Shown one piece after another: positions 1,426-3,348 of a stretch of 54,067 bases of DNA. How positions within the stretch are numbered: position 1 is the stretch's first letter; every line of letters begins with the position of its first letter. The notes below the pieces were generated by a model. The model was not told where the DNA came from, ran no database searches, and worked only from the letters and a program-made list of their open reading frames with translations. A program made the translations under genes and the position numbers. Source of the DNA: Crocinitomicaceae bacterium (GTDB taxonomy: Bacteria > Bacteroidota > Bacteroidia > Flavobacteriales_D > Parvicellaceae); NCBI GenBank assembly GCA_002716065.1, contig PAZE01000018.1, positions 1-54,067 of the forward strand, given 5' to 3'.

Positions 1426-3057
<1,632 letters not shown>

Positions 3058-3127: not shown

Positions 3128-3158
3128 TCAAAAAAAAGCAGGCCCATCGGCCTGCTTT
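3128..3158 (-). terminator. Rho-independent terminator behind the mini-ORF
   Basis: On the minus strand a 10-bp perfect stem (AAAGCAGGCC with GGCCTGCTTT, plus-strand arms 3135-3144 and 3149-3158, loop of 4) is followed by a run of T. It lies 17 bases past the stop of the 22-codon ORF. There is no T-run on the plus-strand side, so the direction is clear. Confidence 0.88.
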
Positions 3159-3175
3159 AAAAATAAGGAGATGGT

Positions 3176-3241
3176 TTAGACAATACCACTATTAGGCACC
3201 ATCTGAATAACCATAACCTTGTAAAACTTTAAATTAATCAT
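3176..3241 (-). CDS. Possible 21-residue small protein with strong Shine-Dalgarno
   Basis: A 22-codon ORF (ATG at 3241, TAA at 3178-3176) encodes a mildly hydrophobic peptide that begins MINLKFYKVMV and ends VPNSGIV. The case for translation is an 8-base match to the anti-Shine-Dalgarno sequence (AGGAGGTG) six bases from the ATG, and an intrinsic terminator 17 bases after the stop. Other genes in this window lack such a site. It lies downstream of the ChaN/CPXCG operon and may belong to that transcript or have its own promoter. A 6-bp hairpin (3275-3290) sits just upstream. I do not recognise the peptide, and it could instead be a leader or a structured RNA. Confidence 0.45.
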   Translation of the reverse strand: MINLKFYKVMVIQMVPNSGIV

Positions 3242-3245
3242 CTGA

Positions 3246-3253
3246 CACCTCCT
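3246..3253 (-). promoter_or_regulatory. Strong Shine-Dalgarno site
   Basis: The minus strand reads AGGAGGTG, complementary over 8 bases to the 3' end of 16S rRNA, with 6 bases between AGGAGG and the ATG at 3241. Bacteroidota normally initiate without such sites because the anti-Shine-Dalgarno is sequestered on their ribosomes, so this match is exceptional here. Confidence 0.7.
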
Positions 3254-3348
3254 CTCTATATTAGTTAGTAAATTGATTGTTGTCACAATCTTGAACACTT
3301 AAATTTATAGACTTGTTTTTGCACTTTGATTCTTGTTTAACTAATTAT

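Follow-up and report, generated by a model that had tools for sequence, protein, structure and literature searches.

A small conserved gene with an extended Shine-Dalgarno sequence and a predicted self-occluding RNA in the Flavobacteriales

Background

The ribosomes of marine flavobacteria as a rule disregard Shine-Dalgarno (SD) signals. Strong SD sequences are favoured by bS21-lacking ribosomes in F. johnsoniae, as reported by McNutt et al. (PMC9976891), who also argued, from annotated genes, that SD control in the Flavobacteriales is limited to rpsU. The element described here resembles this extended-SD autoregulation of rpsU, the gene for bS21 (PMC9976891), in that an SD of about -21 kcal/mol is found in an SD-less lineage and that the ribosomes reading it presumably have their 16S tail free. 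It differs from rpsU in that it encodes a peptide of 20-21 amino acids and is a stand-alone structured RNA, the SD of which would be occluded by its own ORF and by a mimic of the 16S tail.

Other small RNAs share parts of this layout. Leader-peptide attenuators (erm, tna and ABC-F leaders) also consist of a short ORF, alternative hairpins with a common strand and a terminator, whereas the element is without a conserved downstream gene. In the hok- and AapA-type mRNAs of type I toxins the SD is occluded by long-range pairing; the element is likewise a small mRNA with an SD predicted to be hidden in this way, although its peptide is polar and an unsystematic look saw no antitoxin RNA. Dual-function small RNAs of the SgrS/SgrT type are also small, terminated RNAs in which a tiny ORF is combined with conserved structure, but for the element no trans target was identified and the strongest pairing is that of the SD to the 16S tail.

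Results and discussion

The unit and its copies

The window, which is the whole stretch of 54,067 nucleotides that was analysed, carries the unit on its minus strand (Table 1). The layout proposed in a preliminary description (SD, ATG, 21 codons, stop, 17 bases and terminator) was borne out by the sequence at 3260-3131, and conservation beyond close strains, on which that description had made its case depend, was found in the presence of the unit in other genera. Three genera of the window's family (g1, g4 and g9) carry it according to blastn against 60 relatives, as do at least dozens of marine Flavobacteriaceae/Flavobacteriales MAGs according to a pattern scan of GTDB genomes, with one copy per genome and varied gene neighbourhoods. 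The analysis set comprised 73 distinct copies among the matches listed, after duplicates, incomplete copies and chance hits had been dropped. In most loci the identities of the SD, the GACA loop and CGATGG are partly by construction, as the SD and the TGACAAYA loop were specified in the scan pattern and only copies with the CGATGG terminator loop were retained afterwards; neither step constrained the promoter box, the ORF, the codon bias, the pairing of the stems or the post-stop segment. The p values overstate independence because the copies are related, and the claim of conservation leans on the other copies since the alignment of covariance model R2 already contained that of the window. The window copy is among the more diverged ones, with one start-codon pair broken and a promoter-like box that is weak and spaced differently from that of the family. 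From this comparison of sequences we regard it as almost certain that the unit is a conserved gene of ~170 bases and not a chance ORF.

Table 1. Coordinates of the element and its parts, and of the neighbouring ABC-F gene, in the window
Feature	Position	Strand	Basis or remark
ABC-F family ATPase gene	1426-3045	same strand as element	own TATATTTG box between element terminator and start
Whole RNA element	3128..3292	(-)	covariance model R2: 122 bits, E 6.5e-21; predicted transcript ~165-170 nt
Degenerate promoter-like box TAAATTTA (consensus TAnnTTTG)	3300..3307	(-)	sequence
5' hairpin GATTGT-GACA-ACAATC	3275..3290	(-)	covarying stem, cells 100% paired; loop identity partly from search pattern
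Extended Shine-Dalgarno UAGAGAGGAGGUGU	3245..3258	(-)	13 bp with 16S 3' tail, -21.9 kcal/mol
SD core AGGAGGTG	3253-3246	(-)	sequence
Start ATG	3241-3239	(-)	sequence
21-codon ORF MINLKFYKVMVIQMVPNSGIV, stop TAA	3176..3241	(-)	ORF kept in 72/73 copies
Stop TAA	3178-3176	(-)	17 bases on to terminator
GGUGCC (RYRYCC segment)	3195..3200	(-)	partner is SD GGUGUC or local downstream arm
Local hairpin, ORF end	3178..3204	(-)	fold; family synonymous-codon null z -3.34; swap test 0/300
Post-stop segment CUCCUUAUUU, 16S-tail-like	3161..3170	(-)	pairs with SD 5' half; weak in window copy (z -0.7; family mean -2.69)
Intrinsic terminator AAAGCAGGCC-GAUG-GGCCUGCUUU + U run	3131..3158	(-)	10-bp stem at 3158-3135

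Nothing in Rfam reached the gathering threshold on the element, either in the window or in six carrier loci, and low-threshold matches to enterobacterial sRNAs were attributed to chance. NCBIfam gave no match for the element peptides, and a description of the element was not found among the literature titles and abstracts listed. Searches of 399 order-level and 395 class-level genomes outside the carrier groups gave weak model matches (~30-47 bits) but no convincing one. Of the weak ones, five were read and proved to be ordinary terminators, three of them with a CGAT loop and none with an SD-ATG unit; phage and viral collections returned one weak phage match, and viral pattern matches without the features of the element. 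Terminators with a CGAT loop on a GC-rich stem recur elsewhere in the Bacteroidia, apart from the element (L285, L343, L282). The signature GGTGTC-nn-ATG was present in ~13 genomes of a 397-genome sample from the family of one carrier, and one further match, in G912, was rpsU, not the element.

The extended Shine-Dalgarno sequence

The preliminary description placed the SD six bases from the ATG in a genome otherwise without such sites. The spacing holds if counted from AGGAGG; counted from AGGAGGTG it is four bases (TCAG). The short SD match by itself is not significant, because AGGAGG-N(3-10)-ATG was found once in the 54-kb window versus 2.3 times expected by chance, and AAGGAGGT-N(3-9)-ATG occurred 12 times in the window's assembly (G000), fewer than the 16 of a reversed-pattern control. 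It is the 13-bp complementarity to the 16S tail, together with its conservation, that stands out, and a tiny ORF with a strong SD, standing alone in an SD-avoiding lineage, is indeed what was found. The consensus SD pairs at -21.8 kcal/mol and that of the window at -21.9 kcal/mol, below the -13 kcal/mol used to recognise bS21-regulated SD genes of Bacteroidia; in the same comparison an SD-bearing rpsU reached -21.0 kcal/mol, and the rpsU genes of the window's family ~0. As the window's assembly lacks the 16S gene, the tail used, GGCTGGAACACCTCCTTTCTAG, was taken from three element-carrying relatives. The 16S tail (L224-L228) reads CCTCCTTTCTAG in element-carrying genera (three genomes) and CCTCCTTTTTAGA in two genera of the family in which no copy was found (two genomes).

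RNA structure and alternative pairings

For 48 copies RNAalifold predicted, besides a 5' hairpin and the terminator, a hairpin that joins the SD and start codon to mid-ORF codons. In this consensus structure 98.2% of cells pair and double changes occur in 14 of 25 pairs, a covariation approached by 0/500 shuffles and by no slid version. Outside the consensus, alignment-free analysis recovered two more pairings. One (mean z -2.69) joins the 5' half of the SD to the post-stop segment, which resembles the 16S tail and is called the mimic here; the other forms a local hairpin where the ORF ends (z -2.54, negative in 72/72 copies). Against a synonymous-codon null the local hairpin reached z -3.34 (69/69) and the pairing of the SD with the ORF z -2.05 (68/69). 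Swapping hairpin arms between copies weakened the local hairpin (0/300; 0/500 with one copy per distinct 5' arm), and the V/I/T/A codon preceding Pro was purine-ended in 60 of 60 cases, with 22 expected.

The two helices sharing RYRYCC are mutually exclusive, because the same segment pairs either with the SD or with an arm of the local hairpin. Mid-ORF bases have therefore either the SD or the local hairpin as partner, and this alternative pairing suggests a switch. The SD of the full RNA was less accessible than that of the nascent RNA reaching as far as codon 8 in all 11 folded copies; the drop was slight in L010 (0.50 to 0.46) and larger in the others. Neither the self-occluding structure nor the mimic, nor the SD-less rpsU of the window's family discussed below, figured in the preliminary description. 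Long-range occlusion of the SD is a feature that would also be expected of a type I toxin mRNA of the hok or AapA type. We consider this identification highly improbable, as the peptides, rather than being hydrophobic membrane peptides, are mostly polar with no membrane-helix pattern by eye, and no antisense gene was seen in the unsystematic look.

Reading frame and peptide

The ORF has 20 codons in 45 of the 73 copies, 21 in 24, and 26 in three that are without the usual stop; in L003 a single-base insertion, which is either real or a read/assembly error, breaks the ORF after 7 codons. Gaps in the ORF alignment are three-base gaps except in one copy, and pN/pS is ~0.5 for Flavobacteriaceae copies and 0.67 for those of g4. 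These comparisons indicate that the reading frame is kept and that constraint on the peptide is weak. By the preliminary description's own standard, RNA structure in the absence of a kept frame would have counted against it; it survives, since structure and frame are both conserved. The predicted product, of which MSYDNHLRNSRQQVPTNGPL is one type, is not bS21 or another ribosomal protein but a peptide of 20-21 amino acids, rpsU being at a separate locus. Flavobacteriaceae peptides follow an MSY-N-LR / QQ-P pattern, and between genera the peptides differ, with almost no common residues except Pro.

Both the pN/pS value of ~0.5 and the Flavobacteriaceae pattern would be accounted for by a functional microprotein gene with a merely structured mRNA, for which ribosome state would be irrelevant. 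This seems quite unlikely to us in view of the extended SD within an SD-depleting lineage and the near lack of residues common to genera, and also because base pairing, and not the residue, sets the codon before Pro. Perhaps, instead, the RNA itself acts as a sponge that binds or holds subunits whose 16S tail is free, be they immature or bS21-deficient, with the peptide as a by-product, which would be consistent with a weakly conserved peptide and with the SD and structure being the most conserved parts. We think this unlikely, given that a sponge needs no ORF, that the SD is buried in the fold, and that the frame is kept through three-base indels with the stop position nearly fixed.

Gene neighbourhood and promoter

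Most Flavobacteriaceae carriers have ribE and a CPA1-like Na+/H+ antiporter gene upstream of the unit on the same strand. The unit lies between a CaCA-type exchanger gene pointing away and a gene facing it in g4, and between a CPXCG gene and an ABC-F gene in the window's genus (the names antiporter, exchanger and ribE were read from sequence, with no family search). Genes downstream of the element vary and are often convergent, and no conserved regulated gene, as an attenuator would have, was found in the same transcript. Of 72 copies, 55 have a TAnnTTTG promoter box at a fixed distance 5' of the 5' hairpin, versus 3.8 expected. The element is, as far as its sequence can tell, a stand-alone gene.

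In the window and in G002 the next gene downstream, on the same strand, is the ABC-F gene, and the short ORF could then be the leader peptide or attenuator of that gene, as in antibiotic-responsive ABC-F genes. We give this reading hardly any credence and rejected it, as the arrangement is not conserved beyond the window's genus, other genes, often convergent, follow the element elsewhere, and the ABC-F gene has a TATATTTG box of its own.

Proposed mechanism

The reading that we favour, tentatively and somewhat short of calling it probable, is that of a mini-mRNA that occludes its own SD and is translated for the most part by subunits whose 16S tail is free, i.e. bS21-deficient ones. Its parts, pairings and frame come from the comparison of copies, and from these we infer which subunit binds, when it does so, and what the peptide or the occupancy does. 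The SD and start codon would pair with mid-ORF codons and the mimic, hiding the SD, and the RNA would open only on binding of the SD by a 30S subunit that exposes its 16S tail (bS21 being missing or displaced), probably during synthesis of the RNA. The free 16S tail would compete for the SD with the built-in mimic and the mid-ORF strand, and bound free-tail subunits would translate the ORF, the outcome being a small peptide and/or the occupation of such subunits. Being translated by free-tail subunits, the element would sense bS21-deficient ribosomes as rpsU does, via a separate gene. The earlier proposal that translation of the ORF reports ribosome state is made plausible, by analogy, by the published bS21 mechanism (PMC9976891).

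Relation to rpsU

The rpsU genes that were read in the window's family are without an SD, and hence do not have the extended one that typifies the Flavobacteriales (G000:C7:1720-1878; loci L050-L064), with a pairing of ~0 kcal/mol in G000 and G013, and consequently the extended SD in this family sits on the tiny ORF. Most, but not all, of the Flavobacteriaceae carriers checked have an SD ahead of rpsU. The sRNA-like unit with its terminator and its anti-SD-like mimic might be taken for a trans-acting small RNA, the mimic pairing for example with the SD of rpsU. This is very unlikely in our view, considering that the mimic has its partner in the SD of the element itself and that rpsU of the window's family does not offer the SD target.

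The element is thus a predicted second extended-SD gene in the Flavobacteriales, and an unannotated one, which in one family persists though rpsU has lost its SD. More speculatively, though well within what seems possible, the self-occluding mini-mRNA might be riboswitch-like, with the 16S rRNA tail as its ligand: it would gauge how large the pool of ribosomes exposing their anti-SD is, the tail competing with the built-in copy, respond by making a peptide or holding subunits, and form a second branch of specialised-ribosome control beside rpsU. If confirmed, the second extended-SD gene would allow direct tests of specialised ribosomes with a part of 170 nt and provide a natural reporter for bS21-deficient ribosomes. 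One carrier genome, G314, has two copies of rpsU (L245 and L250), both without an SD.
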